Positions 54 through 20,470 of a stretch of 20,470 nt of DNA are shown here, piece after piece. The first letter of the stretch is position 1; each line of letters starts with the position of its first letter. Origin of the DNA: Scytonema sp. UIC 10036 (GTDB lineage: Bacteria; Cyanobacteriota; Cyanobacteriia; Cyanobacteriales; Nostocaceae); NCBI RefSeq assembly GCF_009725235.1, contig NZ_WJFC01000233.1, forward strand, positions 1 to 20,470, in the 5' to 3' direction. The translations under genes were made by a program, and so were the position numbers. A model generated the notes under the pieces. The model saw nothing but the letters and a program-made list of their open reading frames with translations, had not been told where the DNA came from and ran no database searches.

Positions 54-100
54 TAACTGGTTAGGAAAGCGCAACTAGTTAACTCTAGTGTAACTGGTTT
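54..100. repeat. TAACYAGTTA motifs, left-hand cluster
   Basis: Three copies of the motif that fills the right end of the window occur here: TAACTGGTTA at 54-63, CAACTAGTTA at 72-81 and TAACTGGTTT at 91-100. Two are in the inverse orientation to most right-end copies. They are spaced 18 and 19 bp, close to the 20-bp phase of the right-end array. Their presence about 20 kb away suggests a second site for the same DNA-binding protein. Confidence 0.6.
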
Positions 101-117
101 ATGCGATCGCATTCAGT

Positions 118-152
118 GCCCAGTCCCTACTCCCCAGTCCCCATCCCCAATC
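118..152. repeat. STRR-type heptamer repeats, copy 2
   Basis: A second block of CCCCAGT/CCCTACT/CCCCAAT heptamers lies just after a HIP1 octamer (GCGATCGC at 103-110). No coding function is seen. From 153 to about 480 I see no convincing gene, RNA or regulatory site; the open frame starting at 161 lacks a ribosome-binding site and protein-like composition. Confidence 0.7.
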
Positions 153-488
153 TTTAACCATTGGATTTAACCAGATATTTTGATAAACCTAACGAGAACT
201 TTCTATGGCTTTGCTTACCGAACTTTATTAGCCTCAAAAAGCACCTTAAAGAAACCCTACCACTGATACCAACCTTTTTTCAAAAATACCAACTTTTTCT
301 ACCCGTAGCCAGACGAAGTAAATATAGATTATTAGGATTTAATCTGTCGATCCATATACTTTCCACTTAGAGATATACTCCCGTCTCTTTAATGACGTAG
401 GACAAAGCTTTTGCAGCGCGTCACGTGAAAGCCCTCTAAAATCGCCAGCACAACGCATGAAAAGCAGCAACCATAGAATCTATCATCC

Positions 489-988: not shown

Positions 989-1702
989 CTATAAGTACTT
1001 TGAGCTTGAAATACTATTTATTGCAGGTAAGCCCAATTTACTACGTTCGGCATTGATTTTCCTTAATTGATTTATTAAAGAAGGTCTTTTACCAGTTTCG
1101 ATTATTGTTCCATCCGTCATCCACGCTTTACTTTCTTGTGTATAAGTATTGTATCGACCCATCATAGCTTGAGGCTCCCGAACAAAAATATCAACACTTA
1201 GAGCATAAAATAGAGTAAATAAAAGAGGATATGTTTTTGTTTGGGCTAAGCACTCTTCTATGAGAAATTCTTTAATTTCAAAATCCCAATCTTCTTGGTA
1301 TTCAGGATTTATGACTAGCTTTTTTTCAGATAATAAAGTACGAGCATATAATATATTTTTTTCGTAGTCTTCATTTTCAAGAGCAAATGTTCTCCATCTA
1401 TAATTTAAATTCTTTTTTTTTAAATATTTGGTATGAATTATCTTCAATGTAAGATTGCTAACAATTAAGTCAACTTCATAGCCTTTTACTATATCTGTTA
1501 ATAAATCGGCAGTTTCTTGTAGATTTATAGTATTATTTAGACCATGAAGTAATACATTGTATCTTTTAGTTTTTTGATTAAATTCTATTATTGAGATTGC
1601 TAATTCCTCCGCACCTTTCGCATGAGCATAGCAAGATACTAAACATTTCTTCTCTTCACTGCTTTCAAAAAATAAAGTGGCAACATTGTCTGGCGCTTCC
1701 AT
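989..1702 (-). CDS. Hypothetical protein, possible nuclease-dead terminase-like RNase H-fold domain
   Basis: This 237-residue protein is not recognised as a named family. Its start overlaps the terminase large-subunit stop as TAATG, so the two are probably translationally coupled, and it is the last gene of the operon before the hairpin at 927-949. Read against the C-terminal nuclease half of the neighbouring terminase (residues about 337-490), the order of predicted strands and helices matches: an opening strand (CLVSCYAHAKG against YYAGLDTSTIG), a charged turn, a helix, a VDLIVSNL strand against VTSIEI, a helix beginning ARTLLSEKKLVINP against MVLALEKQVLKYP, and a closing helix ending in YALSV against FALAV. 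The catalytic Asp of GLD and the HDD pair are absent. A degenerate, possibly regulatory, nuclease-like domain is inference from alignment by eye. The reading frame itself is well supported. Confidence 0.75.
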   Translation of the reverse strand: MEAPDNVATLFFESSEEKKCLVSCYAHAKGAEELAISIIEFNQKTKRYNVLLHGLNNTINLQETADLLTDIVKGYEVDLIVSNLTLKIIHTKYLKKKNLNYRWRTFALENEDYEKNILYARTLLSEKKLVINPEYQEDWDFEIKEFLIEECLAQTKTYPLLFTLFYALSVDIFVREPQAMMGRYNTYTQESKAWMTDGTIIETGKRPSLINQLRKINAERSKLGLPAINSISSSKYL

Positions 1703-3228
1703 TAAATACTCCTAATTTCAATCCCAGCAAATGGATTAGTTTTTTGCTTGTTAAATGGTGTCACCGCTAGCGCAAATGCTACACTCATTACACAATCGTC
1801 ATGCTTCCCCGGTGCGGCTTCTAGCTTCTTTCCATCTCTTCGGAAACTAAGCATTTCATCAATTAGCGGACAGTTGGAAGGGTATTTTAATACTTGTTTT
1901 TCAAGGGCAAGAACCATTGTACTTATCATCGCTGGCTTACTATCTCCAGTGGTGCGGATTGCTTCAAATTCCAAGCTGGGAAATTGTCTTGACAATTGTT
2001 CAAGATATACTAAACCTACTCCTCCTGTAATTTCAATCGATGTTACTCTTGGTCGAAATTTTTTCAGTATCTCTCCTATTTGGTACTGGTGATACTCGCT
2101 TGTTTGTTGACGTTTGCGGTAGAGGTAAACGAGTGAGTATTTACCTTTCCGTTCTTTTAAAATTGACAATACACAGTAGTCATTTCCTATAGTTGAAGTG
2201 TCTAAACCTGCATAGTAGATCGAGTCTTTATCAATGGTTTCCTCATATGCTCCAACGGCATTTAATCGGATAATTTCACTACTAAATACAGCTACAGCTG
2301 AGTCAATGAATCGCAAATCATACTCTCTCGATATCGTCTCCATATCTGTACCATCTTGCTGCATTCGATATTCTAAATAATTTGGCATCTGACTGTAGAT
2401 TGGATGGGCTTTCCAATGCACGATTAGCTTTACAGTATTAGCTTTGTCCACGAACCAATAAAGCCCTGGAATTTCTTTATAGAGTTCACCCTCTGCTACT
2501 CGGATACATAATTCTTCAATATCAATATCTTCGTTATCAGCATTTACTTTGTCCCAGTACCATCCACTTTTAGCGCTTGGAGTACTTACTATTAATTTAG
2601 TAATCGCATCACCTGCGAGCGCTCCAGATGGGCTGCTAGCTGCATAAATTTGTTCTATGTGCTCGACAAACGCTGCCTCATCAAATAGGAAATCTAGAAC
2701 ACTATCGTAAGACCTTGAGCCTTCACGACTTGAATTTTTGAAGTAAATTTCGCCTAGTCCTTTAAACTTTCGATAGCCAACATTTGCAATTTCTTCTGTT
2801 ACATAATCACCAAGACATCCTATCATTGTTTTTGCTCTTCTGCTGATAGCGCTCGCGTCATCGCCATTTCTCATAAAGCACATAGCAGAATAGGCTGGAT
2901 TAATGCAAGCACGATGCAAAAACTTACTAAGAATAAGTTGTGTAAGTCCTAGTTGACGGCTCTTGACAACCACTATATTGTTGTACTCATCCATCAACTG
3001 AGAGAGTACTTTTTGATAGTGGTAAGGGACAAACTTTTTCATTTCTCCCCCACTTCTAATCGTAGTGAGTGCAACAAAATCTTCCCATTGCTCAGGAATC
3101 GATTTTAAAAAACAATCTGAATTGATTTCAATTTGCTTTTTAATTAACTTCAATTCCTGAGCTATTGAGTTGATGCTCATTAGCTGATTTGAGCCTTTTT
3201 GTATTAATTTCTTTGATATCTTCGACAT
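1702..3228 (-). CDS. terL: Terminase large subunit (ATPase plus nuclease)
   Basis: In tailed phages this protein is the packaging motor: an ATPase that drives DNA into the procapsid and a nuclease that cuts it. The N-terminal half has the terminase Walker A variant KSRQLGLTQ (residues 89-97), a Walker B FLFDEAAF (180-187) and a coupling motif IVSTPS (213-218). The C-terminal half is an RNase H-like nuclease with GLDTS (Asp343), SIEI (Glu399) and HDD (476-478). The 508-residue length is normal and no motif is missing, so the enzyme looks intact. The first ATG at 3228 overlaps the upstream gene by 89 bp; an internal ATG at 3180 would cut this to 41 bp, and no ribosome-binding site decides between them. 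No portal, capsid or tail gene is seen in this window, so a packaging role in this replicon is not proven. Confidence 0.88.
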   Translation of the reverse strand: MSKISKKLIQKGSNQLMSINSIAQELKLIKKQIEINSDCFLKSIPEQWEDFVALTTIRSGGEMKKFVPYHYQKVLSQLMDEYNNIVVVKSRQLGLTQLILSKFLHRACINPAYSAMCFMRNGDDASAISRRAKTMIGCLGDYVTEEIANVGYRKFKGLGEIYFKNSSREGSRSYDSVLDFLFDEAAFVEHIEQIYAASSPSGALAGDAITKLIVSTPSAKSGWYWDKVNADNEDIDIEELCIRVAEGELYKEIPGLYWFVDKANTVKLIVHWKAHPIYSQMPNYLEYRMQQDGTDMETISREYDLRFIDSAVAVFSSEIIRLNAVGAYEETIDKDSIYYAGLDTSTIGNDYCVLSILKERKGKYSLVYLYRKRQQTSEYHQYQIGEILKKFRPRVTSIEITGGVGLVYLEQLSRQFPSLEFEAIRTTGDSKPAMISTMVLALEKQVLKYPSNCPLIDEMLSFRRDGKKLEAAPGKHDDCVMSVAFALAVTPFNKQKTNPFAGIEIRSI

Positions 3229-3670
3229 CCTGAATCAACTCATCAATTCCTAATAACGCTCTATTTGCTTCAAAAGCCAGCATAACCGACTCGGTAACAG
3301 ATTTCAAAGACTGAGGGATTCGAGCTTCACTAATATCCAGTGAATCTAAATTTTCTACTCGCTCTTTAAGCTTATTTAAGTAAGCGATCGCTAGCTCATA
3401 AATCAAAGTAGATGCTGAACTATACCGTTGTCGAAACACCTCCAAATCTTCAGTTAAAGACTTTCTAACATCTTCTACGACCACCTGTGTAACAACTTGA
3501 GCTATCTCCTTAGTAGAATTCCCAACAATTTCTTGGAATTCTGGGCGACGCTTTAATCTCTGCACCCAACTACGGCTCTTACCACAAGCCTCAGCGATCT
3601 GACTCTCTGTGAAGCCTGATGAAATTAGTTGTGCTGCTTTTGACTCAAGAACGGTGAGCGGCTTGGGCAT
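3140..3670 (-). CDS. Small-terminase-like HTH DNA-binding protein
   Basis: This is a 176-residue protein with an N-terminal helix-turn-helix (about residues 12-45, from ESKAAQLISSGFTESQIAEA through CGKSRSWVQRLKRRPEF) of the kind found in terminase small subunits and resolvase-type HTH domains. A mostly helical, charged C-terminal region follows and could mediate oligomerisation. It sits immediately upstream of, and overlaps, the terminase large subunit, the standard place for TerS, which recognises the packaging site and feeds DNA to TerL. The function therefore rests on HTH plus position; sequence identity to a named TerS family was not visible. Upstream lie 10-bp phased repeats and a palindrome (3681-3741) that may be its operator. 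Confidence 0.75.
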   Translation of the reverse strand: MPKPLTVLESKAAQLISSGFTESQIAEACGKSRSWVQRLKRRPEFQEIVGNSTKEIAQVVTQVVVEDVRKSLTEDLEVFRQRYSSASTLIYELAIAYLNKLKERVENLDSLDISEARIPQSLKSVTESVMLAFEANRALLGIDELIQDVEDIKEINTKRLKSANEHQLNSSGIEVN

Positions 3671-3765: not shown

Positions 3766-6700
3766 TTAAGCTAAGAGTTCCCGGAGCATTTTGCGCTCTG
3801 CTAACTCCAAGACCCCCCACACCGCTTTTTTGAAACGTTCTGCCCAATCAGCTGTCAGAGCAACGATCATTTCGCGGCTCCTCTCTGCGATCGCAATTCT
3901 CAGATACTCAGCATTGTCAGCAACAATCTCAGGGGCAAAGTCCCCCGTACCACCGTACTTCAGCGCTTCTGCTGCTTCTGCTTCTTCCTTGAGTCTTGCC
4001 GCTTCGGCTGCAGCCGCTACCTTCTGCTCCTCCGCCTTACGTCGCGCTTCTGTATCTCGCACCAGCCACACCTCAAAGATTGGTTCCCGACCATCTGACA
4101 TTGGGATGGGAAGACCGTCTTCACCCAAGATTATTTTTTTAGTTTCTTCATCTGTATGGAACTTTGGAGCGGGCAAAGAATAATATCTAATTTCGGAATC
4201 TCGCTTGCCTTTGCGGGAATAGCATACCATTTTGTGTCCGAGCAATGCTAATATATCTTGAACGCATTTTAATCGCTTCTTCTCATTTTTGACTTGCTTT
4301 GAAAGGTCAAGCCCGATGACAGTTTTTACGTGGTGAACATTGGATTTTATCTTCTCAAAAATGTCGATAATTACCGGATGATCGTTGTGGAACCCACTGC
4401 CCTGGTACAATCTTTGGATGCCAAGATAATCTAAGAAACCTATTTTTAACTGCATTAAGCTCTTATTGGTATCGACTATAAAATAATCTCCACTCCCTTG
4501 TACAATCGACTTTTCGACTAATTGCGTATCGTGGAACGAAAGGAAGTCTCTACCTGGTTTGAAGAAGTAATCTAATCTGATTTTGGTGCCCCATCTGTCG
4601 TCGTCTTTCTTTACTAGTTCTTCTGTACAATCAACAAGGTATTTTCGCTCAATTACTCCCTTCCTTAACTCCAATAATTCATCAGTTGTCCTCTCCTGTT
4701 GTTTGCTTAACTTTTCAAATTGCTCGTCAGTGCGCTTGGCAGCCGCCGCAACATCTTTACAATGTTTCTCGTAAATTTCGTCGCGTACTGTCTTGATTTC
4801 GTCCTTCACCGCATCAGGAGAAATATTCTGCTCTTGACCTTCTTCAAGTTCATCTGAAATATCTGGTTTCTCTGCTTTTTTAGAATCTTTCCAGTCAACA
4901 ACAATGTGACCTTCTTCCTTCAAATCTTCAAGAATGGTTTGGGCGTATTTCCACATCCCCGCATTGATAATAGACCCCAACTTCGCCCAAGTTTCCAAGC
5001 AGATCGGAGAAAAACTACCGTCGGGCATTTCTACGAGACCTGCTTCAACAAGTTTTTTGCGGTTAGTATTATCAAGCTGCTTTTGCGATCCTATCAACCC
5101 CGACGGAGTTACTGAACTATTGCCAACAAAATTAATACCTTGACCCTTAAGCCAAACATATCGGGGAATTGGATTACGATCGCGACTAAGATGCTGCCTC
5201 ACTCCATCAGCTGTCTGTACTCCTTGGAAAATGCCCCAAACTCCATCAAAATGTTTAACATCAAGGGATACACCAGTTTCAATCGTTGGAGAACAAATCA
5301 CTAAGTCATAATCCACTACTGCCTTATTCAAATTTTGGGTAGATTTAAATGCTGGATGCGTTGGGTTAGAAACAGTTTCTGAGTCAATTCTTAAGATTCT
5401 AAGATGGGGAAACTTGCGTTTGAAGTACTCCTCTAAGGTCTGGGTGCCCCAAGTAGATTTTGGCTTTTGTCCAGAAACACAAACTAATGCTTTCTCCCCT
5501 TCTGCTATTTTTTTCTCCAGCGCGGCAACAAGTGAAGCTGGGGTAGTGCCACCAAAGCGGTGAATTGTCCAGGGCTGATTAAATCGAAACTCATTAACCA
5601 GTAAGAATCGCTCAGGAGAAAAACCTAATAGACCTTCAATGAAATCAACGGCAATATCGTTTAGATCGGCATCACCAACGATAATTTTGCCACCAGTAGA
5701 AATAACAAATCTCAGTAGTTCTTGAAGAGTCTTGACAATGGCAACGCGGTTTGATTTACACGTGCTGCTAGACAAGAGATGCCAGATAACCTGCTGTACT
5801 TCATCAAGAATAACCCATGCCCCACGCCACTCCTCATAGTTGAAATGCGCTTGGCTCTTAGGATGTAAGCTGTCAATACACATCCCATAGCCCAACAATC
5901 CTCCTTCTTCTGCTTGTTTGCGTTCGGTGAGATATGGAACGCCAATTCGAGCCGCACCTTGCAACGACAATTGAATCCTGTGTGTTATAAAAAGTACCCG
6001 CCGTTCTCCACTTCGTAGAATGGGGTCACACAAGAATGAGTACCATTCTGTTTTTCCGGTTCCCTTGGGCGCTTTAACGGCAATAAATTGAGCAGACACT
6101 GGTGGGAGAACTTCACAGATGTAACGCTGGTTAAGTATTAGGTCTGGAGTATATGTCAGCTCCTTCAGTTGCTTGGTCTGCCACTGGTCAAAACTTAATG
6201 CGTTACGGTAAAGGTCATCAAATTTTCCCCGACCATGAGCAACGAGAACATCGTCAACTCCTTTGCCCATTACTGGATGCCAGGTGATGACCTTCGCTTC
6301 GCACTTTTGGACAAGGAATAATTTTGCAGTTTTAGCGATCGCTTTATTGACATTTCGCACCGTCTCCCGCTTGGAATCTTGGTCAAAGCAGAAGTAGATT
6401 CGCCTGCCTGCCTGGGCAAATACCTGTAACTGGGGAATTAAGGAAGCCATGCCGATGGAGTGACCTTCTTCATCTCTCGGTTGTCGGATACCAGACCAAA
6501 TTCCCGGTATCGCGATCGCAACATACCCACAGCTGAGAACGGACGCTGATTTTTTTACCCCCTCGCAAATAATCAGTGGAATTTTGGGATTTTGGAGAAC
6601 CCATTGCCAGAAAATGAAAGGGTCCTCTTTGACTTGCCGATAGTTCTCTGGTAAAACAACATCGTAACGACGGCTAATTAGTTGGAAGATAGCGATCGGG

Positions 6701-7362
6701 ACTCGGAGAGCAAAAATTTCCGTAGGCACCCCTTGAGGATGCTCATATTTTTGCAATTTCCCTTTTTTCTCGTCCACACGGGGATTATTGGGCTTGAAGC
6801 AACCCCACAAACTGTCCTGCCCAGTCAGGATATCTACACCAGAACACCACCAGCCACCATCATCTAGGTGCTTGTATCGATTTAATACCCCTAATGATAG
6901 CCTACCCGTATTAGTTCGAGGTAGCTTATCGGAGTAGAGCAAGTAACTGTAAGGCGTTTGTCCTTCTAATGTCCTAAGGTTGAGACTTGTTAGTTCCGGA
7001 TCGATAGCACTTCCTTGTACCCACTCTGCGATGTGTTTGTCTGCAAAGTATTTGTCGCTGGAGAACAGGGAGCGCTCATTGTTACTGTCCCATCTGGATT
7101 TCGTTGCAGGATTGGTCGGCTCATTACAATTTGAGTTGCCATCTGCTGATTCATCCCTTGTTTCACCATCTCGGAGATAATTTTCTTTTGCATCCTCTTG
7201 TACTTCTTGGTGCCTGGGTGCAATACCTTTGACTTCTTCAATGACGGTTCCACTTTTCTTCCCTTTTACTAATTTAAAAATCTGCCGCGAAAACTGGCGA
7301 GCGCTGATTTTTGCTCTATCACCTTTTACTCTGGGCTTGCCGAATCCTTGGGAGGCTCTCAT
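3766..7362 (-). CDS. CyRepA1-type plasmid replication protein (Toprim-like plus helicase)
   Basis: This 1198-residue protein has the layout of the cyanobacterial CyRepA1/origin-binding helicase family. A Toprim-like (DUF3854-type) region includes ICEGVKKS (Glu267), CFDQDSK (about 325-331) and GVDD (368-371). A superfamily-2-like helicase core follows with Walker A APKGTGKT (431-438), Walker B LDEVQQ (519-524), GDADL (563-567), SPTIETGVSLD (691-701) and QHLSRDR (723-729). The C-terminal third contains charged helices and an Ala/Glu-rich coil near residues 1110-1145. The protein is expected to bind and open the plasmid origin and perhaps prime synthesis. GGGAGG sits 7 nt upstream of the ATG, and the ATG overlaps the stop of a 55-codon gene as ATGA, so expression is probably coupled to it. 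The motifs are visible; the family name is from memory of the domain order. Confidence 0.85.
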   Translation of the reverse strand: MRASQGFGKPRVKGDRAKISARQFSRQIFKLVKGKKSGTVIEEVKGIAPRHQEVQEDAKENYLRDGETRDESADGNSNCNEPTNPATKSRWDSNNERSLFSSDKYFADKHIAEWVQGSAIDPELTSLNLRTLEGQTPYSYLLYSDKLPRTNTGRLSLGVLNRYKHLDDGGWWCSGVDILTGQDSLWGCFKPNNPRVDEKKGKLQKYEHPQGVPTEIFALRVPIAIFQLISRRYDVVLPENYRQVKEDPFIFWQWVLQNPKIPLIICEGVKKSASVLSCGYVAIAIPGIWSGIRQPRDEEGHSIGMASLIPQLQVFAQAGRRIYFCFDQDSKRETVRNVNKAIAKTAKLFLVQKCEAKVITWHPVMGKGVDDVLVAHGRGKFDDLYRNALSFDQWQTKQLKELTYTPDLILNQRYICEVLPPVSAQFIAVKAPKGTGKTEWYSFLCDPILRSGERRVLFITHRIQLSLQGAARIGVPYLTERKQAEEGGLLGYGMCIDSLHPKSQAHFNYEEWRGAWVILDEVQQVIWHLLSSSTCKSNRVAIVKTLQELLRFVISTGGKIIVGDADLNDIAVDFIEGLLGFSPERFLLVNEFRFNQPWTIHRFGGTTPASLVAALEKKIAEGEKALVCVSGQKPKSTWGTQTLEEYFKRKFPHLRILRIDSETVSNPTHPAFKSTQNLNKAVVDYDLVICSPTIETGVSLDVKHFDGVWGIFQGVQTADGVRQHLSRDRNPIPRYVWLKGQGINFVGNSSVTPSGLIGSQKQLDNTNRKKLVEAGLVEMPDGSFSPICLETWAKLGSIINAGMWKYAQTILEDLKEEGHIVVDWKDSKKAEKPDISDELEEGQEQNISPDAVKDEIKTVRDEIYEKHCKDVAAAAKRTDEQFEKLSKQQERTTDELLELRKGVIERKYLVDCTEELVKKDDDRWGTKIRLDYFFKPGRDFLSFHDTQLVEKSIVQGSGDYFIVDTNKSLMQLKIGFLDYLGIQRLYQGSGFHNDHPVIIDIFEKIKSNVHHVKTVIGLDLSKQVKNEKKRLKCVQDILALLGHKMVCYSRKGKRDSEIRYYSLPAPKFHTDEETKKIILGEDGLPIPMSDGREPIFEVWLVRDTEARRKAEEQKVAAAAEAARLKEEAEAAEALKYGGTGDFAPEIVADNAEYLRIAIAERSREMIVALTADWAERFKKAVWGVLELAERKMLRELLA

Positions 7363-8759: not shown

Positions 8760-8978
8760 TCAAATTATTTCCTTCTCTGAGGTTATTGTGCTCAGAGGAT
8801 TTGGCTGCAACGGGATAAATTTATCTCCCAATGTAGGTGCGAATTTGCTCATGCGATCGCTTCCACTGTTTGTCCAATGGGGAGCATTACTTAGTTCAAA
8901 TGGTATTGCTCTCAAGCGTTCCTGTGTCAGCAGTTGAGGATACATCGGGATAGTTATATTTCCCGATGCTGGCTTCAT
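8760..8978 (-). CDS. Small hypothetical protein overlapping the recombinase gene
   Basis: This open frame of 72 codons overlaps the last 83 bp of the recombinase and ends just before the ribosome-binding site of the next gene. An internal ATG at 8945 would shorten the overlap to 50 bp. Neither start has a clear Shine-Dalgarno sequence. The product is Pro- and Ser-rich with no recognised domain. Tight packing between two real genes is the main support. It could be a chance frame. Confidence 0.35.
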   Translation of the reverse strand: MKPASGNITIPMYPQLLTQERLRAIPFELSNAPHWTNSGSDRMSKFAPTLGDKFIPLQPNPLSTITSEKEII

Positions 8979-9564
8979 CCACAGGCGTTAACATCGACAA
9001 TGCGGCAATCGCACCCCGAACCTGCGATTCTTCAACCTCAAGGTATTTTTGCAACTGCTCTAAGTTCCTGTGTCCGCTTATCTCCTGAATGACCCGTAAC
9101 GGTATCCCAGCATTACTCATTAGAGTTAACGCAGTTCTGCGGCAGCTGTGACTAGAAGCCCCAACAATGTCTACCCGCTTACACGCTTCTCGGAGAATTG
9201 CAGCTGCACTATCCTCATGAATGTGACCTCTCCCCCAGCGACCGGGGAAGAGATAGCCGTCCAGAGTTTGTTTCGGTTTGTACATAGATAAGTATCTCCG
9301 TAGGTCATCCAAAACCGGAATAGTCCGAGTAGCCAACTTGCCTTTAGTATTGCCTTTGCGGATGATAAGCTCTGTGCGTACCCTGCCTTTGCGGTCATAC
9401 ACATCGGTGACTTTGAGGGTGACGCATTCTTTGACACGGCAAGCAGTATAAAGCATTACAGCGCATAAAGTTTTGTCCCTAACGGTAAGTAAGCCAGAAG
9501 TAAACAGCCTCTGGATTTCTTCAGTAGACAAAACCTTTGCTTTCCCATGACGGTCAATCTTCAC
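8896..9564 (-). CDS. Tyrosine recombinase, catalytic domain only
   Basis: This 222-residue protein carries the full catalytic set of the tyrosine recombinase/integrase family: Arg43 in TACRVKE, a lysine in the RKGNTKGK hairpin (70-76), His139 and Arg142 in SSHSCRRTALTL, His165 in SGHRN and the nucleophile Tyr174 in QKYLEV. The usual N-terminal core-binding (SAM-like) domain of XerC/XerD is absent, so it is a minimal enzyme of about 220 rather than 300 residues. It would cut and rejoin DNA through a 3'-phosphotyrosine intermediate, perhaps resolving plasmid multimers or integrating the element. Translation appears to start at a GTG directly after an in-frame stop; an AGGAGG lies 15 nt upstream, which is unusually far. 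It is a separate enzyme from the telomere resolvase at 16087-18123. Confidence 0.88.
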   Translation of the reverse strand: MKIDRHGKAKVLSTEEIQRLFTSGLLTVRDKTLCAVMLYTACRVKECVTLKVTDVYDRKGRVRTELIIRKGNTKGKLATRTIPVLDDLRRYLSMYKPKQTLDGYLFPGRWGRGHIHEDSAAAILREACKRVDIVGASSHSCRRTALTLMSNAGIPLRVIQEISGHRNLEQLQKYLEVEESQVRGAIAALSMLTPVDEASIGKYNYPDVSSTADTGTLESNTI

Positions 9565-12145: not shown

Positions 12146-14134
12146 ATGATACCAGATAAAGAAAATCGAAGAGAAGTAAAATCCCCACTTGTTGTAACTG
12201 GTGTGGTGTGTGCTGCACTATCAATTGGTTTAGCGCTTGATAAAAATGTCCACACTGGAATTAAGCTGGGAGTTCCCACAATTGGCTTCTTATGCTGCCT
12301 AGTAGCACGCCATGGAGTTAGGCACGAATTAACAGATATTGAAGAGCAATTTCAGGACAGATGGGAGGGGATTGATTTAAGAGAGTCACAGTTGTTAGAC
12401 AGGGAAGAAGAATATCGGATCGCTCTTAACCGACTAGAAAATGAAAAGCGAACTCTCCATAACGACCATGTAGCGCGGTTAAATGCCCTCAGAGAAGCCG
12501 AACAGCGTTACAAAGACCAGTATCAGAATTGGGTTAACGAACTCCAGTCAGAGCACGCTGCAAAGTTAGCAGAGCTTGATAAAGACCGTCGTATTTTTGA
12601 AAAGGAGAAAGAGTTACAAGAAGCTTTGCTCACTGCCAAAAAAGACCAGATCGCAACACAATTACACGAGCAAAACGAGCAACGCCGATCTGAGTTGGAT
12701 GACAAAGAAGCAAGAATTAATCACCAAATAGCCAAGGCTAATGAACAACTGGCAGACATCCAAGACCAGCTAGAAAGTGAGTATCAAGCTAGGTTAGCAC
12801 AATTTAGTGAAGAGAAGCAATTCTTGATGGAGAAACATTCTAAGGAGATCGATTCTTGGAAGCAACGCTATAAGGATGCCCAAACGCAGATCGCAATTTC
12901 TAAAGCGCCCAAATTCCCACTTGGAGGAGATGAGATTGCTAGTCACGAATGCATTAAGGTTATCCGTTACCTGTGGACGCTGGAAACTCCCATCAAAGTA
13001 GACTGCCACGAGCGCCAACCGCAAAACCAAGGAAACAAAGATGTCTTTTGGTTAACCCTTAGAGATGCTACACAGCTGTCAATACTTAAGAGCAAAGTTG
13101 ACGAAATCCAATACATCCTTGGGAAAGGTCACAAGCCAATCATTGACCAAGAACGTGGTGAATCTACTATTAGAGTTGAATTAAAGCGTAACACAGAACC
13201 GGGAATTGTGCTTAAAGTCAGCAAGCAGGATGTTGAAGAAAAAATCCCAACACTGGCTAAGCATAAAAATGGTAAGCGCGGTTGGCTGGTCACTGGTCAC
13301 CCCGGCGCGGGTAAAACTTCTGTTCTCATCTGGCTGGGACAACTGATTGGTGGGGAGGATTGCGATCGCGTAGCCTTAAATCCCCACAACGATGAATTCT
13401 CAATGTTCAAGAAATACGGCTATCACGAAATTACCGAACTGTCGCTGATTTATTCACAGTTAGAACTGCTGGCAGAGGAATTAAATCTGAGAGGACAAGA
13501 CCCAACACGACGGCGTAAGTTGATTGTCGTTGTTGATGAGCTAGGGAAAATCCTGAGCAACGCTGAGGACCCACAACGAGTTATGGAAATCATACGCCAG
13601 ATAAATGTTGAGGGTAGAAAGCTAGAGATGGTGATTTTAGTAGGTAATCACAGCCAGACTACTACAGCCATAAAGATGGATGCTGAATTTAGAAGCGCGT
13701 TCTACCAGTTGTTCTTGGTTGGCGCTGCTAGAGAGTTAATCAAGAAGCCGAATGCCCCAGAGCTACAAGATTTGGAGAAGCAATGGCTGCATGACACTGC
13801 TTACCCAACTATCACTTTAATCAATGGTCAATACTCCATTTGCCTGCATCCAACACACTGGAACTACACAGAATATCGTGATAGCGGCAATCCTCCAAAG
13901 GGACTGCAAGAAATGAAAACTCTCCCTTTGAGTGTTGCGATTGCAGGTCAAGAAACTGTAATTAATTATGGGTTGACTGATGCTGAAATAGTCCAGATAG
14001 AACAGCATAAACACTTATCTGTTGCTCAAATAATTTACGAAATTTGGGGTATAAAGCAGAGTAAATATGCAAAATACACGTCCAAACGAGACTTGGTAGA
14101 GAAATATTTACAGAATTATACCCAAATTCATTGA
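12146..14134 (+). CDS. Membrane-anchored coiled-coil P-loop ATPase (FtsK/HerA/TraD-like)
   Basis: This 662-residue protein starts at an ATG with AGGAAC 4-6 nt upstream. Two hydrophobic segments lie at residues about 13-31 and 38-54. A long charged coiled coil spans about 60-250. A P-loop NTPase domain follows with Walker A GHPGAGKT (384-391), Walker B LIVVVDELGK (459-468) and a polar strand ILVGNHSQT (497-505) in the sensor position. The C-terminus (about 610-660) could be a small winged-helix. Membrane anchor, coil and RecA-like motor resemble DNA-translocating FtsK/HerA and conjugative coupling proteins, but the exact family is not recognised and no relaxase or type IV secretion gene is seen here. 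It probably forms a complex with the small membrane and coiled-coil proteins encoded just upstream. Confidence 0.7.
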   Translation: MIPDKENRREVKSPLVVTGVVCAALSIGLALDKNVHTGIKLGVPTIGFLCCLVARHGVRHELTDIEEQFQDRWEGIDLRESQLLDREEEYRIALNRLENEKRTLHNDHVARLNALREAEQRYKDQYQNWVNELQSEHAAKLAELDKDRRIFEKEKELQEALLTAKKDQIATQLHEQNEQRRSELDDKEARINHQIAKANEQLADIQDQLESEYQARLAQFSEEKQFLMEKHSKEIDSWKQRYKDAQTQIAISKAPKFPLGGDEIASHECIKVIRYLWTLETPIKVDCHERQPQNQGNKDVFWLTLRDATQLSILKSKVDEIQYILGKGHKPIIDQERGESTIRVELKRNTEPGIVLKVSKQDVEEKIPTLAKHKNGKRGWLVTGHPGAGKTSVLIWLGQLIGGEDCDRVALNPHNDEFSMFKKYGYHEITELSLIYSQLELLAEELNLRGQDPTRRRKLIVVVDELGKILSNAEDPQRVMEIIRQINVEGRKLEMVILVGNHSQTTTAIKMDAEFRSAFYQLFLVGAARELIKKPNAPELQDLEKQWLHDTAYPTITLINGQYSICLHPTHWNYTEYRDSGNPPKGLQEMKTLPLSVAIAGQETVINYGLTDAEIVQIEQHKHLSVAQIIYEIWGIKQSKYAKYTSKRDLVEKYLQNYTQIH

Positions 14135-14809: not shown

Positions 14810-15991
14810 ATGAACACAAACGGAAAGTCTAATGTTATTAGCACTGAGCAACTAGAAATGATTTCGAGCGAAAATATTGCACCAGAATCGTCAGAGATTA
14901 AGCCAAAGAAACAGCGTAAAACGCCAACTAACCTCAACAAAGTGGAAGATGTCAGATTGGACTTGGATGCGGGAAGTGCTAGGGCTAAGTTTGTTGTTGA
15001 TGGATGGTGTGGAAATTACCCCACAATGTTTAAAGAAGTTGTTGGCGAACTCCCGTCTGGTATTAGTGGTTGTTTCTCAATTGGGACAAAAAATTACGCT
15101 GTGGGACAAGTCGCAAATTCTCTCAATGGTAATTTGGTTGAGGCTTTCAAGGACAACAAGATTAAGTTTCTCCACATCTGGCTTATTGGAGCATTGAGCA
15201 CACACCCCGACCTCTTAGCTGATATTGCTAACAGACGGAAGTACAAAGGTAAGCCAGCTAGACTAAAAATTACCTTGCGGTTGCTATCACTTTCATCAAG
15301 CAAGAGAAATGATATTTCTAAAATTTTGGGTGAGCTAAAATCATTCACTTGTGAAGGCTGTGAATTTCAATTAGAAGTTACAAACAGTGATTATTTGTTT
15401 CCTGAGGGATACGGCAGTGCTTTAGAAGCCGTCAAGAAAGTTGCTGATGGAACTCGCGAGTTTAATGTTTTAGATCTGGGTGGTGGCACTTTAACTTTTT
15501 CCACATATCAAGTAGGTAAACGACCAAAAGCCGTGGAGCAAACATCGGGTAGTGGTAACGGCATGAAAGCAGTAATAGAGCGCTTAAGTATTGCCTTAGC
15601 TCGCGTGGATAGAGGTGGTGTCCAGTACAGAAAAGAAAGTCTTGAGTCAGCTTTGAGAAATTCAAAACCGCTCGGAGATGGTAAACACTCCGTCAAATAT
15701 CGCCATGGACAAGAGTCGCTTGAAATTGGTGATACCGTGGCTCACGCTCTGAGTGAGTGGGTAGCAGAGTCGCCAATTGTTGAAACACTGCTGGCTAAAG
15801 TTTCACAAGCGCTATTAAATGGGACTCCGGTTTTTGCGTGTGGAGGTGGCTTCGCAATTTCTGCTGTCGCTGGCTGGATTGAAAAATACGTAACTCGTGA
15901 TATCGAAGCTCCCCAGTTTACCATTCTGCCCAGCCCCCAAGACATCAACCTTACGGGCTTGAAGTATTTGGATTCCAGTTCCCATAACTAG
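14810..15991 (+). CDS. ParM/StbA-family actin-like partition ATPase
   Basis: This 393-residue protein has the actin-fold nucleotide-binding elements in order: phosphate-1 LDLDAGSARAKFV (50-62), phosphate-2 VLDLGGGTLTFSTY (220-233) and adenosine motif FACGGGFAIS (342-351). A polar N-terminal extension of about 45 residues precedes the fold. ParM-type proteins polymerise with ATP and push plasmid copies apart through an adaptor, ParR, bound to a centromere. No separate parR-like gene follows; the next gene is the telomere resolvase, which itself contains a ribbon-helix-helix region. The stop codon lies inside a TAACTAGTTA motif (15985-15994), the first of four such motifs before the resolvase gene. 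The gene is probably controlled through the tandem 11-mers at its start. Confidence 0.82.
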   Translation: MNTNGKSNVISTEQLEMISSENIAPESSEIKPKKQRKTPTNLNKVEDVRLDLDAGSARAKFVVDGWCGNYPTMFKEVVGELPSGISGCFSIGTKNYAVGQVANSLNGNLVEAFKDNKIKFLHIWLIGALSTHPDLLADIANRRKYKGKPARLKITLRLLSLSSSKRNDISKILGELKSFTCEGCEFQLEVTNSDYLFPEGYGSALEAVKKVADGTREFNVLDLGGGTLTFSTYQVGKRPKAVEQTSGSGNGMKAVIERLSIALARVDRGGVQYRKESLESALRNSKPLGDGKHSVKYRHGQESLEIGDTVAHALSEWVAESPIVETLLAKVSQALLNGTPVFACGGGFAISAVAGWIEKYVTRDIEAPQFTILPSPQDINLTGLKYLDSSSHN

Positions 15992-16066
15992 TTACAGCTT
16001 TACTCAAAATTTATTTAACCAGTTATTGACACTTTGTAACTGGTTAAGCTAGTATTTAACCAGTTA
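15985..16066. repeat. Four TAACYAGTTA motifs upstream of the telomere resolvase gene
   Basis: Copies lie at 15985-15994 (TAACTAGTTA), 16016-16025 (TAACCAGTTA), 16037-16046 (TAACTGGTTA, inverted) and 16057-16066 (TAACCAGTTA). The last three are 21 and 20 bp apart, so they face the same side of the helix. They fill the 95-bp gap between the ParM-like gene and the resolvase gene, where an operator would be expected. Confidence 0.75.
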
Positions 16067-16086: not shown

Positions 16087-18123
16087 ATGTCTAAGTTACT
16101 GGAAGCCAAGGTGAATGAGCTATTTGACGCCACAAAAGACCTCATGAACCCCTCGGAGATTGAGTCACATTGTGAACAGTTCAACACCTGGTTGAACAAT
16201 CAAACCAGTTATAGCAATGAGTCTCTAGGTACTGTTCTGAGCCGTGCTGGGTTCTACAAAAAGTTCAAATCAATTACTAACTTGGTTCCTGGTCAGAATG
16301 CTGTAGTGGTGTCAAAGCACGATGAAAACGGCAATGTCGTGGGTACTACAATCAAGCATTTGTGCCTGGAGCTTTGTGGCTTGACTCCCCAGCAGTGGGA
16401 TGAGAGAAACCAAACCACGCGAGTAACTGACCGCCTATCCAATGAAGGTCAAGAAATCGATCCAGATAAATATTTAGAAGTTACCGGGCGATTGCTGGAA
16501 AGTGAAGACCCACACGAACTGGCTGTTGGTTTAATTGCCGCTACTGGTAGAAGACCCCATGAGATTTTAGCCCGTGCTAGGTTTACCCCAGTTGAGGGAC
16601 AACCCTACAAAGTCTTGTTTGGTGGACAAGGAAAGAAGAGAGGTTTAGACACCAGTTTTGAAATTGCTACTCTTTACCCTGGGGAATACATAATCAAATG
16701 TCTGAGCCGCCTACGCAATGAACCCGGTACTAAATCACTTCTTATAGAAGTCGCTAACGAATTTCCAAAAGACTTAGCAAAACAAAACACAGCTATAGAC
16801 AACCGTCGCGGACAATCTCTTAGACGTGTTGTTCGAGACTACTTCGGAGACAAATACACCGAAAATCCAGCTTTAGAACTGCGAGAAGGTGATGACCAGA
16901 ACAATAACAAAGCCTTACGTGCTGCTTGTGCAGCGTTAATCATTGAACGTGATTATCCTGGCTCCATTGGTTCTAAAATGCTGGCTTTTGGTCGCTTTTT
17001 AGGTCACATTGCGCTTACTGAAAAGCCATCTGATAGTAACCTAAAAAACATTGTTACCACTTTAGGTTATTCAGACTATTACGTTAGAAAGCCAATCCCC
17101 TACCCAACAGCGCCGCAAAAGGAAAAGGAAAAAACAGCTTCAGTAAGGGTCACTGAATCAGATTTTGAGTTAATCAAAAATTTGCAATCCGCGTGGGAAT
17201 TGTCTACTCAGCCAGCTGTTATTGCCCGTTTGCTGAAGTTTTATAAGCACGGAACAAAAGAAATTCTGGAAGCAAAAAGCCAATGCGATCGCCTCAAAGA
17301 AGAATTAGTTCAAGCCAATGACCAAATTATCAAACTAAAAGAGGAAATATCCGCCATGCAGTTACAGCCACAGTCGCAACCAGAGCAACAGCCACAAGTA
17401 GCCAGTGGAGATTTAAGAGCAATGATTCAAGAAATAATCAGAGAAGAATTGCAAGGAATGCAAGTCAATACCACACCTACACCCACATCCATACCACAGA
17501 TAAAAACCACAGAGCCAGCAGAGCAAGCAAAATCCATTACCAACTGGGAAGACTTCAGCGACAAAGAACTTTGGGAGAGCAAAGCTAAAGGGAGCGCTGA
17601 AGAGAAAGTTCGGAGGTCGTTTCTCGCGATCGCGTCCTACAACGATACGATGGCAACTGGAGACAATGACCGCCTAGCAATTACTAACCAGGCGCTTCGG
17701 GAACTATCGGGGGCAAACGGCATGGTTGTTGGGGATTGGATTAAGTCTCATGCGGATGAGGTTGTGTCTCATAATGCTAAGCACGGCATGGGGAATTCAA
17801 AAGACCCCAGCAAAGTTGAAACCTATTACAACAAACGGCATGGGGGCGAACGAATTACGGAGTTGCTCCAACTAATCAGCGATAAGTTCTTGGACGGGCA
17901 AGCGATGAAAGCAAGCAAACCAGAAGAAAAACCTGCTACTACACCCACAACTACTCAGTCATCCCAAAACAAAACTATCACTTTAAAAGCTACGGAAGCC
18001 TCAAGGATGGATATTGAACACGCGCTCAAGCAAAATCCTGGTTATACCGTAACGACTAAGGATGGAAAGAAAGTTGCAGCGATCTACAGACTTAACGAGT
18101 CGGGAGAAGTGGTTGAGGTCTAG
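16087..18123 (+). CDS. Telomere resolvase (protelomerase) with C-terminal RHH/coiled-coil extension
   Basis: Telomere resolvases cut a palindromic telomere junction and reseal each side as a closed DNA hairpin. Residues about 90-335 match the family core: Arg155/156 in ATGRRPHEI, lysines 183/184 in FGGQGKKRG, Arg278 in ALRAACA, His307 in FLGH and a candidate nucleophile among Tyr328, Tyr331 and Tyr332 in LGYSDYYV. The His-to-Tyr distance (21-25) is longer than in TelK or ResT. Beyond the core, residues 351-390 (ASVRVTESDFELIKNL, then STQPAVIARLLKFY) read as a ribbon-helix-helix, followed by a coiled coil (391-424), a Gln/Pro linker, a helical domain (about 484-605) and a small C-terminal module (628-678). 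At 678 residues it is large for the family. Four TAACYAGTTA motifs precede it, and the substrate-like palindrome is at 20401-20470. The ATG at 16087 lacks a strong ribosome-binding site. Confidence 0.8.
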   Translation: MSKLLEAKVNELFDATKDLMNPSEIESHCEQFNTWLNNQTSYSNESLGTVLSRAGFYKKFKSITNLVPGQNAVVVSKHDENGNVVGTTIKHLCLELCGLTPQQWDERNQTTRVTDRLSNEGQEIDPDKYLEVTGRLLESEDPHELAVGLIAATGRRPHEILARARFTPVEGQPYKVLFGGQGKKRGLDTSFEIATLYPGEYIIKCLSRLRNEPGTKSLLIEVANEFPKDLAKQNTAIDNRRGQSLRRVVRDYFGDKYTENPALELREGDDQNNNKALRAACAALIIERDYPGSIGSKMLAFGRFLGHIALTEKPSDSNLKNIVTTLGYSDYYVRKPIPYPTAPQKEKEKTASVRVTESDFELIKNLQSAWELSTQPAVIARLLKFYKHGTKEILEAKSQCDRLKEELVQANDQIIKLKEEISAMQLQPQSQPEQQPQVASGDLRAMIQEIIREELQGMQVNTTPTPTSIPQIKTTEPAEQAKSITNWEDFSDKELWESKAKGSAEEKVRRSFLAIASYNDTMATGDNDRLAITNQALRELSGANGMVVGDWIKSHADEVVSHNAKHGMGNSKDPSKVETYYNKRHGGERITELLQLISDKFLDGQAMKASKPEEKPATTPTTTQSSQNKTITLKATEASRMDIEHALKQNPGYTVTTKDGKKVAAIYRLNESGEVVEV

Positions 18124-18186: not shown

Positions 18187-18248
18187 TAACTAGTTATGAA
18201 TTAACGGAAAATTTCATAACTAGTTGTCGTTTAATCTATAACCAGTTA
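18187..18248. repeat. Three TAACYAGTTA motifs downstream of the resolvase gene
   Basis: TAACTAGTTA at 18187-18196, TAACTAGTTG at 18217-18226 and TAACCAGTTA at 18239-18248. A 24-codon frame (18254-18328) begins directly after the last motif, mirroring the arrangement before the resolvase and SAP-domain genes, but it stops where an IS630-like remnant begins. The site may once have controlled a gene now disrupted. Confidence 0.7.
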
Positions 18249-18557: not shown

Positions 18558-18785
18558 ATGAAAGTTGATAAACAAAACAAAAAAATTAAAGCTATGGTAT
18601 TGGCTGGGATAGCGACTGCTGCCATAGTCCTTGGTGTAATAGCTTCAGTGTTGAGAAACACTTCTTTTTTACCTTCTTCAACAATACAACCACCGACAAC
18701 ACCGACTTTGCCAGCTAGTGAACATGATGATGACGACGATGACGATGATGATGATGACGATGATGACGACGATGACGACGATTAA
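18558..18785 (+). CDS. Small membrane protein with a 19-residue poly-Asp tail
   Basis: The product of 75 residues starts at the ATG at 18558 (KVDKQNKKIKA, basic), followed by one membrane segment (about residues 12-32, AMVLAGIATAAIVLGVIASV), a Pro/Thr/Ser-rich spacer (STIQPPTTPTLPAS) and a C-terminus of 19 consecutive Asp encoded by mixed GAT and GAC codons. Topology predicts the acid tail outside the cytoplasm. The frame can be extended upstream to 18459, but that part lies over the transposase remnant. No strong ribosome-binding site is seen. The simple GATGAC repeat could be a low-complexity expansion, so the gene is plausible rather than certain. Confidence 0.5.
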   Translation: MKVDKQNKKIKAMVLAGIATAAIVLGVIASVLRNTSFLPSSTIQPPTTPTLPASEHDDDDDDDDDDDDDDDDDDD

Positions 18786-19213: not shown

Positions 19214-19276
19214 TAACTAGTTATAACCACTTGACGAGCAATCTATAACTAGTTATAGTAAATACATAACAGGTTG
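19214..19276. repeat. TAACYAGTTA motifs upstream of the SAP-domain gene
   Basis: Exact copies TAACTAGTTA lie at 19214-19223 and 19246-19255, with degenerate ones at 19224-19233 (TAACCACTTG) and 19267-19276 (TAACAGGTTG). The spacing of the last two is 21 bp. They end about 57 bp before the ATG of the SAP-domain gene and probably form its operator. Confidence 0.65.
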
Positions 19277-19333: not shown

Positions 19334-19921
19334 ATGTTCGCAACATTCACAACCATCACCGCCAAGAATATCGCAACAACCGAAACTCTCATCAGCGATC
19401 TAGAGCAACAGCTGCAAGTGGCACGTCAGGAGTTAGCTCAGTTCCAACAACAACAGCAAGCAGAACAAACAGCTAAGAGCGCCGCAGAAACTGCCCTGGA
19501 GATGGTACGAAAAGCCCGTAAGCTGGTACAAGTCGCTTATGGTGATGCAGCTGTAGAAGAGTTCAACCGGGCGCTGGTAGAGGATGAGGCAGTAGCAAGG
19601 GAGTTGCCACAAGTTGAGGACAGCAACGCGGGTTCCGAAGCAATGCCAACCGACCCGACACCCAGTGCTGAAACTGATGTCCCTGCGACCGTGACCGTAG
19701 AAGCTGTAGAAGTAGACTCACAGGAAGCACAGGAGGGTAGCGAAAGCACAGCCGAAATTGTTTTACCCACACCCGATGCGATCGGCTCCATGAAGAAAAA
19801 CGAACTGGTCGCATGGTTGAAGCGTTGCGAACTTCCTGCGGGTGGTACGGTGCGTGAGATGCGGAATCGGCTGAGTGCTCACGCGATGTCTTACCGCAAC
19901 CCCAATACCCAAGCCGCGTAG
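19334..19921 (+). CDS. Coiled-coil protein with C-terminal SAP-like DNA-binding domain
   Basis: This 195-residue protein has AGGAGA about 8 nt before its ATG. Residues about 13-67 form a Gln/Glu/Ala-rich coiled coil. Residues 85-150 are an acidic, Pro/Thr-rich linker. Residues about 152-185 (SMKKNELVAWLKRCELPAGG, then TVREMRNRLSAH) fit the SAP motif, a helix-extended-loop-helix that binds DNA. The gene is the last before the telomere array, has the shared TAACYAGTTA motif upstream and a hairpin after its stop. A role at the telomere or in segregation, for instance binding AT-rich terminal DNA, is inferred from position only. Confidence 0.7.
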   Translation: MFATFTTITAKNIATTETLISDLEQQLQVARQELAQFQQQQQAEQTAKSAAETALEMVRKARKLVQVAYGDAAVEEFNRALVEDEAVARELPQVEDSNAGSEAMPTDPTPSAETDVPATVTVEAVEVDSQEAQEGSESTAEIVLPTPDAIGSMKKNELVAWLKRCELPAGGTVREMRNRLSAHAMSYRNPNTQAA

Positions 19922-19996: not shown

Positions 19997-20166
19997 TAAC
20001 CAGTTAGCTTAAGACTTAACCAGTTATTAGACGACATGACCAGTTGTCATCAGATATAACCAGTTAGCTCAAAACTTAACCAGTTATTAGACGACATGAC
20101 CAGTTGTCATCAGATATAACCAGTTAGCTCAAAACTTAACCAGTTATTAATAGGTATAACTAGTTA
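19997..20166. repeat. Nine TAACCAGTTA motifs at an exact 20-bp period
   Basis: Motif starts are 19997, 20017, 20037, 20057, 20077, 20097, 20117, 20137 and 20157. Six are TAACCAGTTA, two TGACCAGTTG and the last TAACTAGTTA. Within the array a 60-bp unit of three motifs repeats; the segment from 20041 is identical to that from 20101 for 49 bases. Two-turn phasing means all sites lie on one helix face, as in iteron or centromere arrays bound by ribbon-helix-helix or similar dimers. No coding frame is present. Confidence 0.85.
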
Positions 20167-20188
20167 GAAGAGTCATACGTGCGAAGCC

Positions 20189-20396
20189 TAACTAGTTTGT
20201 TAACTGACATAACCAGTTGCCTACATGATAGCAATTGAGTGTAACTAGATGAGACAGACGAACGCTGAAATCCGCTCTATACAACACTTCTAGCTGACAA
20301 CCCACTCCGCAACTATAACCAGTTATGCACATAACTAGTTACGCACCTATAACCAGTTATGCAGACATGAACCAGTTATAAAATAATAACCAGTTA
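20189..20396. repeat. Subterminal TAACYAGTTA motifs with irregular spacing
   Basis: Copies lie at 20189 (TAACTAGTTT), 20210 (TAACCAGTTG), 20242 (TAACTAGATG), 20316, 20332, 20350, 20369 (GAACCAGTTA) and 20387. Those nearest the palindrome are 16-19 bp apart rather than 20. They connect the regular array to the terminal palindrome, which has one copy in each arm. Confidence 0.75.
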
Positions 20397-20400
20397 CGCA

Positions 20401-20470
20401 GACATGATGCTATAACCAGTTATGTCCGTTAACCTAGGTTAACGGACATAACTGGTTATAGCATCATGTC
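20401..20470. other. Perfect 70-bp palindrome, candidate hairpin telomere / resolution site
   Basis: Bases 20401-20435 are the exact reverse complement of 20436-20470 with no spacer; the centre is CCTAGG (20433-20438) within GTTAACC/GGTTAAC. Each arm holds a TAACCAGTTA motif (20413-20422 and, inverted, 20449-20458). Telomere resolvase substrates are uninterrupted palindromes of this size class, cut with a 6-bp stagger about the centre. The palindrome reaches the last base of the window, so the arms may be longer. It can be either an internal replicated telomere site or a read-through of a closed hairpin end during sequencing and assembly. Confidence 0.8.

Follow-up and report, generated by a model that had tools for sequence, protein, structure and literature searches.

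Most work on bacterial hairpin telomeres concerns Borrelia, Agrobacterium and a small number of phages. The stretch of cyanobacterial DNA analysed here (20,470 nucleotides of Scytonema sp. UIC 10036, hereafter the window, which seems to be a whole contig) ends in a perfect, spacer-less palindrome that runs up to the last base, and it poses the question of whether this end marks the physical terminus of a linear replicon, closed by a hairpin, or a point at which the assembly of some other molecule happened to stop.

A perfect palindrome at the end of the contig

The original prediction had placed a 70-bp palindrome with two faultless 35-base arms at the window end, and two scans reproduced it. 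A repeat search returned arms at 20401-20435 and 20436-20470 (35 nt each, 100% complementary, 0 nt between them), and a centre-by-centre symmetry scan also recovered an arm of 35 touching the window end; by arithmetic, some 2e-17 such palindromes would be expected by chance in 20,470 random bases. The hexamer CCTAGG was confirmed as the centre. Read outward from it, the half-site AGGTTAACGGAC matches TTAACRGAC, the half-site core of the pNPM type of Nostoc plasmid telomere.

Table 1. Features of the window, ordered by position.
Position	Strand	Feature	Basis
54-177	+	Left-end boxes (54, 72, 91, 168), probably the margin of the left subtelomere	Motif scan
1702-3228	-	Terminase large subunit, ATPase and nuclease motifs	Profile match
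3140-3670	-	Helix-turn-helix (HTH) protein adjoining the terminase; possible small subunit, judged from position only	Profile match
3766-7362	-	Plasmid replication protein, CyRepA1 family with DUF3854	Profile match
14810-15991	+	Partition protein by PHROG (E 9e-6), interpreted here as ParM-like	PHROG match
15985-16066	+	Four telomere-type boxes (15985, 16016, 16037, 16057) across the resolvase promoter, predicted operator	Motif scan
16026-16055	+	Predicted sigma70-type promoter of the resolvase gene, TTGACA-18-TAGTAT, 10/12 matches	Promoter scan
16087-18123	+	Telomere resolvase (protelomerase), 678 aa, PF16684; R156, K183, R278, H307, Y328	Profile match, alignment
18187-18248	+	Three boxes 3' of the resolvase gene	Motif scan
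19214-19255	+	Two TAACTAGTTA boxes 5' of ORF 19334-19921	Motif scan
19997-20396	+	Array of subtelomeric boxes; contains a 60-bp tandem repeat (19997-20149)	Repeat and motif scan
20401-20470	.	Perfect spacer-less palindrome, predicted replicated-telomere junction or hairpin turn-round	Repeat search and symmetry scan
20413-20422	+	Inner box flanking the telomere, TAACCAGTTA; its mirror image is at 20449-20458, past the turn	Motif scan
20424-20447	.	Conserved telomere core, 24 bp, GTCCGTTAACCTAGGTTAACGGAC; outward half AGGTTAACGGAC at 20436-20447	Half-telomere comparison
20433-20438	.	CCTAGG at the centre, where cleavage with a 6-bp stagger is predicted	Inferred by TelA analogy

The motif carried by each arm had been said to fill the preceding 400 bp, and this description held. 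The arm motif, TAACCAGTTA/TAACTGGTTA, belongs to a family of TAACYRGTTA boxes that, at one mismatch or fewer, occurs 32 times in the window against 2.6 expected, a number reached in none of 100 shuffles. Half of these copies (16 of 32) lie within 19997-20458; the remaining clusters are at the left end, across the resolvase promoter, 3' of the resolvase gene and 5' of ORF 19334 (Table 1), and isolated matches fall at 5595, 8501 and 16202.

A search for the partner telomere at the other end of the contig returned a negative answer: it is absent from the contig, and no telomere palindrome was found at the contig start or in the region 54-177. The left end opens in a CCCCAAT-type repeat and box motifs, and its inverted similarity to the right side is weak and patchy. 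Elsewhere in the window, direct repeats surround ACTGGCGACGG and ATCATC-TGAGGGGTAACGCGG at 482-867, and a GAT/GAC triplet repeat at 18724-18785 gives an ORF that ends in a run of 19 aspartates. No tRNA gene or Rfam family was matched in the window.

A telomere resolvase gene on the same contig

The window encodes a protein that matches PF16684, the catalytic domain of ResT and TelK, at E 6.5e-23 and 81.7 bits, above the cut-off of 27. A profile of 34 relatives of this protein matches the structurally solved TelA (E about 3e-9), TelK (1.6e-5) and ResT (8e-4). Alignment of 18 resolvases, the VP882 protelomerase included, shows that R156, K183, H307 and Y328 are invariant in all 18 and that R278 is kept in at least 16; the match to the VP882 enzyme covers 16% of the window resolvase, taken as query. 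The active site of TelA is described as comprising Arg255, Lys286, Tyr363, Arg366, His394 and Tyr405 (PMC3558466). By alignment, R156 and K183 are the positions of TelA Arg255 and Lys286, and R278, H307 and Y328 would correspond to further TelA residues, as judged from their order and conservation. Against the TelA equivalog NF052462 the protein scores 34.7 bits, below the cut-off of 800, and on this sequence measure it is not a TelA orthologue.

Among 23 plasmid records in which a relative was found, 22 name a cyanobacterium as their source, and the closest resolvases, at 81-82% identity, come from Scytonema sp. UIC 10036 as well, in line with a cyanobacterial host. A close resolvase (E <= 1e-100) occurs in 41 of 217 genomes of one family. 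Most of the relatives listed are about 600 aa long and match some 88-92% of the window's 678-aa protein. An AlphaFold2 model from a 34-row alignment was too poor for use (pTM 0.26, mean pLDDT 63.6); within it, an extra C-terminal stretch, residues 631-678, reaches a pLDDT of about 79-86. Thirteen stretches of viral contigs fit a peptide pattern, and none encodes a relative of the resolvase.

Homologous palindromes at the ends of other replicons

A survey of the telomere core across cyanobacterial assemblies placed the palindrome of the window in a wider setting. Screening with the core pattern TCYGKTAA-N6-TTAMCRGA covered 388 genomes from one order and 217 from one family, overlapping sets that amount to 534 distinct genomes, and gave 20 sites in 17 genomes of the order and 28 sites in 20 genomes of the family. 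Among the 41 distinct sites, 29 are perfect palindromes and 12 are imperfect. All 29 perfect sites fall into one of two settings: 20 lie at a contig end, within 73 nt of it (the right end of G397 being judged from the identical record AP018215), and the other nine are the midpoints of long inverted duplications. The exact arms of these duplications measure at least 1511 in four cases and 748, 444, 236, 41 and 21 in the others; at the two sites with the shortest arms, symmetry continues for about 4 kb at 89-92% identity. No imperfect site (0/12) lies less than 900 bp from a contig end, and the reversed pattern, used as a control, gives single matches in 13 of the 388 and 12 of the 217 genomes, roughly the frequency of the imperfect sites.

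Of the 22 contigs that contain a perfect site, 19 have a resolvase match; on G475:C125 the resolvase, at 42% identity, is cut off by the contig end, on G198:C107 no match was found at 1e-5, and on G474:C234 there was none in the part examined. Viewed from the resolvase, a palindrome arm of at least 15 lies near the end in 12 of 40 ends of resolvase contigs, on 9 of 20 contigs; most of the 28 ends that have no terminal palindrome of this size belong to draft contigs, which may break elsewhere. Where both ends are available, homologous palindromes bound whole units of 21,148 bp (NIES-22), 22,751 bp (G203) and 21,722 bp (G365), and in G477 the palindrome centres are 21,143 bp apart. The NIES-22 unit, plasmid8, was deposited as circular and has a palindrome at both ends. 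Both termini of the Nostoc plasmids pNPM10, pNPM8 and pNPM9 coincide exactly with the turn, AAATTAACRGAC, and pNPM10 has identical terminal inverted repeats of 957 bp.

Comparison of 26 half-telomere rows, to which several replicons contribute two, reveals what these ends share. Reading outward from the centre, TTAACRGAC or a near match occupies positions 4-12, with positions 4-6 and 12 invariant and positions 8, 10 and 11 kept in 25 of 26 rows. At the three tip positions the rows read AAA, TGA, AGA or AGG; AGG occurs in the window alone, and no relative with a CCTAGG centre was found among the 29 perfect sites or the half-telomere rows. The conserved part is the 24-bp core GTCCGTTAACCTAGGTTAACGGAC, and the natural site probably differs in size from 70 bp. 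Arm length looks specific to the assembly and set by the assembler: terminal arms are equal at both measured sites in G203 (53/53), G365 (15/15) and G477 (26/26) and on two contigs of G198 (40/40), but unequal in NIES-22 (49/73) and G210 (48/23). An assembler word length of 127 is common; an arm of 63 gives 126 bases, or 127 minus one, and the window's 70 is compatible with a word of 71. Because arm lengths appear to track the assembly and its word length, we read the 70 bp as assembler overhang past a hairpin turn, and the proposal that reads turned at a hairpin, where the contig then stopped, is compatible with the arm lengths observed.

These data bear on three other accounts of the palindrome. 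A fold-back artefact, in which chimeric or amplified reads created the symmetry on an ordinary circular plasmid, would agree with an arm length that looks assembly-dependent and with the deposition of several relatives as circular. Such an artefact is highly improbable given that the core is conserved and identically centred across replicons of several genera, that perfect sites are confined to contig ends and long inverted duplications, that a resolvase gene lies on the contig, and that none of 36 control contig starts, taken from eight of the census assemblies (40 starts, less four N-masked ones), was symmetric to its end. An internal palindrome of a circular plasmid, acting as a dimer-resolution site, operator or terminator at which the contig broke by chance, is very unlikely: palindromes can break assemblies, and the window carries a second tyrosine recombinase (8896-9564), but homologous palindromes bound both ends of the four whole units described above, and three relatives have been published as linear hairpin plasmids. 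Finally, a linear replicon of the Streptomyces type, whose ends are inverted repeats with proteins capping the 5' termini, could account for inverted repeats such as those of pNPM10, yet ends of that kind are not expected to run into their own complement, as these contigs do, and a telomere resolvase is present; we consider this account extremely improbable.

We favour a hairpin because a PF16684 resolvase is encoded on the contig, because homologous terminal palindromes occur on resolvase contigs, and because Nostoc plasmids with such ends have been published; the same three lines support the original prediction of a closed-hairpin telomere on a cyanobacterial linear plasmid. We thus predict that the contig belongs to a linear plasmid and that its right end is very probably a telomere closed covalently as a hairpin, made by the plasmid's own resolvase.

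Several deposited records touch on the same subject. AP018305, AP018215 and AP018302 were deposited as circular despite inverted identical ends or telomere palindromes, and are probably linear. The records pC052_H and pC052_G, deposited as linear, have internal turn points; around each of them the sequence is duplicated in inverted orientation, over at least about 4 kb on either side and with 89-99.8% identity. In addition, pC052_H carries two protelomerase genes; both are probably unrolled assemblies of hairpin molecules. In AP018306 (Fischerella plasmid8), a record deposited as circular, the two ends are identical in inverted orientation over 186 nt and open with a different palindrome, TTACGTACACCCCGGTCATC/GATGACCGGGG..., which probably represents another class of telomere. 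Further classes are possibly represented by NC_014535 (Gloeothece plasmid Cy782206, deposited as linear, with 22-bp end repeats and CTCGCGAG at the very tip) and AP018286 (Chondrocystis plasmid5, deposited as linear, with 1099-nt identical inverted ends). Candidates from viral contigs were rejected: the matches to the flank pattern (6 and 8 stretches) have no arm of 9 or more with a core and are attributed to chance, and GTTAACCTAGGTTAAC, present in four viral stretches, has arms of 8-10 away from the ends and does not mark telomeres.

A predicted route to the hairpin

Extrapolation from TelA and related enzymes provides a possible course of events at this end. Replication from an internal origin would round both hairpins and generate a head-to-head dimer, in which the resolvase would bind two half-sites, each consisting of TTAACGGAC and the adjoining TAACTGGTTA box. 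Tyr328 would then cut at either edge of CCTAGG, with 6 bp between the cuts, and each 6-nt end would be folded back and resealed by the enzyme. During sequencing, reads that round the hairpin would re-enter the same contig on its other strand, which is probably why assembly stops about 35 nt beyond the turn.

By analogy, the predicted 6-bp stagger at CCTAGG fits the spacing in TelA, whose scissile positions are described as 6 bp apart (PMC3558466). The same source describes that TelA forms no hairpins on most altered centres and that changes at the tip are better tolerated (PMC3558466). Because the CCTAGG centre is unique among the sites found, and because TelA fails on most altered centres, activity of the resolvase on CCTAGG is an assumption on our part; the natural variation of centres suggests either tolerance or enzyme-specific centres.

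Boxes shared by the telomere and the resolvase promoter

The boxes that surround the telomere also occupy the promoter region of the resolvase gene. Two promoter-like sites were found in the stretch scanned against 0.7 in shuffles, and in the predicted promoter (Table 1) the box at 16037 sits between the -35 and -10 hexamers, with further boxes on both sides. Inspection of 42 distinct regions upstream of resolvase genes (excluding 8 matches that start after residue 12, duplicates and regions shorter than 110 bp) shows that this arrangement recurs: AACNNGTT is present in 37 of 42, against 3.05 expected from shuffles, and TTGA-N4..8-AACNNGTT in 22 of 42, against 0.01 expected. In two Fischerella plasmids, all copies of TAGAACTAG (9/9 and 5/5) lie at most 300 bp from an end or 5' of the resolvase gene.

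Promoter and telomere sequences moreover vary together. Across 22 replicons, a resolvase promoter has on average 29.9 8-mers in common with its own telomere and 15.7 with mismatched telomeres, an excess that none of 20,000 permutations reaches, although the permutations ignore the kinship of some replicons; random windows (19 replicons) have 5.9 8-mers in common with their own telomere and 5.8 with others. The own telomere ranks first in 10 of the 22 replicons and 14th or worse in four (pNPM10, G002C102, G198C58 and G477). Outside the resolvase clade of the window, coupling was not significant in any of the three replicons with known ends. In AP018306 the 13-mer AAGGGGTGTAA occurs three times, at both ends and in the promoter, and random windows equal this in 23 of 300 trials by longest word and 60 of 500 by 8-mers; the corresponding counts are 281/300 and 187/500 for the Gloeothece plasmid and 41/300 and 94/500 for the Chondrocystis plasmid. 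For a Rivularia record, which is circular and has no known end, random windows are as good in 208 of 500.

The sharing of boxes suggests, at the level of sequence, a feedback control of resolvase synthesis. Either the resolvase or some other plasmid protein that binds the boxes would repress the resolvase gene through the promoter boxes, and the telomere arrays would titrate the repressor as competing sites. TelN of N15 is described as binding substrate and product alike and as shielding hairpins from nuclease (PMC12624138). No report of resolvase autoregulation was found among the matches listed from the openly licensed literature.

A second interpretation opposes this feedback part of the argument only, and its probability is separate from that of the accounts of the palindrome weighed above: the boxes may be sites for a host or partition protein rather than for the resolvase, in which case those in the promoter would be unrelated to telomere number. 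Binding of the boxes by the resolvase is a prediction, boxes also lie 5' of ORF 19334, and the ParM-like gene adjoins the promoter, such that the boxes at 15985-16066 could be a centromere. Weighing against this, a ParM-like relative was detected in 1 of 22 other replicons searched, and boxes are found 5' of the resolvase in 37 of 42 regions, where they vary together with the telomere. Sites for a host or partition protein are accordingly a real possibility, albeit one to which we give somewhat less than even credence.

A terminase on a plasmid

The remaining genes combine features of a plasmid with one of a phage. The CyRepA1 replication protein scores 420.9 bits, above the cut-off of 200. 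The terminase gene is open over 508 codons, and its Walker A-like, Walker B and nuclease motifs are kept, as they are in four relatives. Its best phage matches (61% identity over 96%) come from Nodularia phages 139-147 kb in size, and its plasmid matches, at no more than 59% identity, fall below these. A relative of the terminase is present in 5 of 22 other replicons searched, pNPM9 among them, and all seven plasmid records matched by the terminase also encode PF16684 or a protelomerase gene. This pairing spans more than one type of telomere, in that both ends of AP018306 carry a palindrome unrelated to that of the window. Genes for capsid or tail were not recognised among 15 ORFs with PHROGs or 10 with Pfam, searches that could miss divergent ones. 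At 12146-14134 (+), the window also encodes a long protein that appears to form coiled coils and contains a P-loop ATPase domain of the Zot type (PF05707, E 2e-5); the Zot-type family takes in filamentous-phage assembly proteins, and a toxin role is not implied.

Because the terminase is open and conserved, it may be in use, for example for packaging by a helper. Phage remnants were proposed by the authors of the Nostoc plasmids for those molecules (PMC5987646). A bolder proposal would make the window a phage satellite that has hairpin ends and a circuit for counting its telomeres. The resolvase would in that case bind the boxes of the telomere and those of its own promoter, and free telomeres would titrate this repressor and thereby set resolvase supply; a terminase of the kind found in large lytic Nodularia siphophages would package the plasmid, of about 21-23 kb, into capsids supplied by a helper phage. 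We regard this satellite as rather unlikely.

Comparison with known systems

Hairpin plasmids with AAATTAACRGAC ends are already known from cyanobacteria (PMC5987646), and cyanobacteria are named among the bacteria with hairpin telomeres (PMC3558466); hairpin plasmids were described in Rhizobiaceae in 2025 (PMC13293297). The text available from PMC4443254, PMC8987985, PMC4379921 and PMC10612081 holds nothing that alters the known status of cyanobacterial hairpin plasmids. New here are the CCTAGG centre, the contig-end census, the coupling of promoter and telomere, and the pairing of terminase and resolvase beyond pNPM9, none of which was found in those parts of the literature that were searched. 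A further new point is that the length of the terminal palindrome looks set by the assembler. The original prediction had called a hairpin-ended cyanobacterial plasmid notable; this holds less strongly, given that hairpin plasmids were already in print and that the resolvase is widespread.

Taken together with its relatives, the contig suggests a large cyanobacterial reservoir of hairpin telomeres, and a short core pattern suffices to locate telomere ends in existing assemblies. If the box common to promoter and telomere is a resolvase site, it would provide a simple, testable link between resolvase supply and telomere number. The pairing of terminase and resolvase likewise makes a packaging role of hairpin plasmids testable.

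The telomere phages N15, phiKO2, PY54 and VP882 carry a terminase gene, as does the window. They likewise exist as hairpin plasmids with a resolvase of their own (PMC5987646, PMC4443254). Unlike these phages, the window has CyRepA1-type plasmid replication and no recognised capsid or tail gene.

With Agrobacterium TelA, the window resolvase has in common its catalytic residues, a palindromic target and a presumed 6-bp stagger, and the TCATGA centre of the TelA target is also found in two distant cyanobacterial telomeres (G210 and G225). The two systems differ in recognition sequence, and the enzymes are not orthologous.

The closest counterparts are pNPM8, pNPM9 and pNPM10 of Nostoc sp. N6, which were reported in 2018 as linear plasmids with hairpin AAATTAACRGAC ends, the hairpins having been deduced from palindromic reads in one type of library and a drop in coverage in another (PMC5987646). 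A term search of the main text of that paper found neither "resolvase" nor "telomerase". These plasmids resemble the window in the half-site core TTAACRGAC, in being linear molecules (21.9-67 kb) and in a resolvase that is 51-52% identical to that of the window; pNPM9 in addition carries a terminase gene, which is reported as disrupted, whereas that of the window is open. They differ from the window at the turn itself, where the centre is TTT/AAA rather than CCT/AGG and the published tip of each half is AAA rather than AGG. Because other relatives also depart from the published tip (TGA, AGA), we do not treat the tip as defining, and we class the telomere of the window as a variant of the pNPM type.
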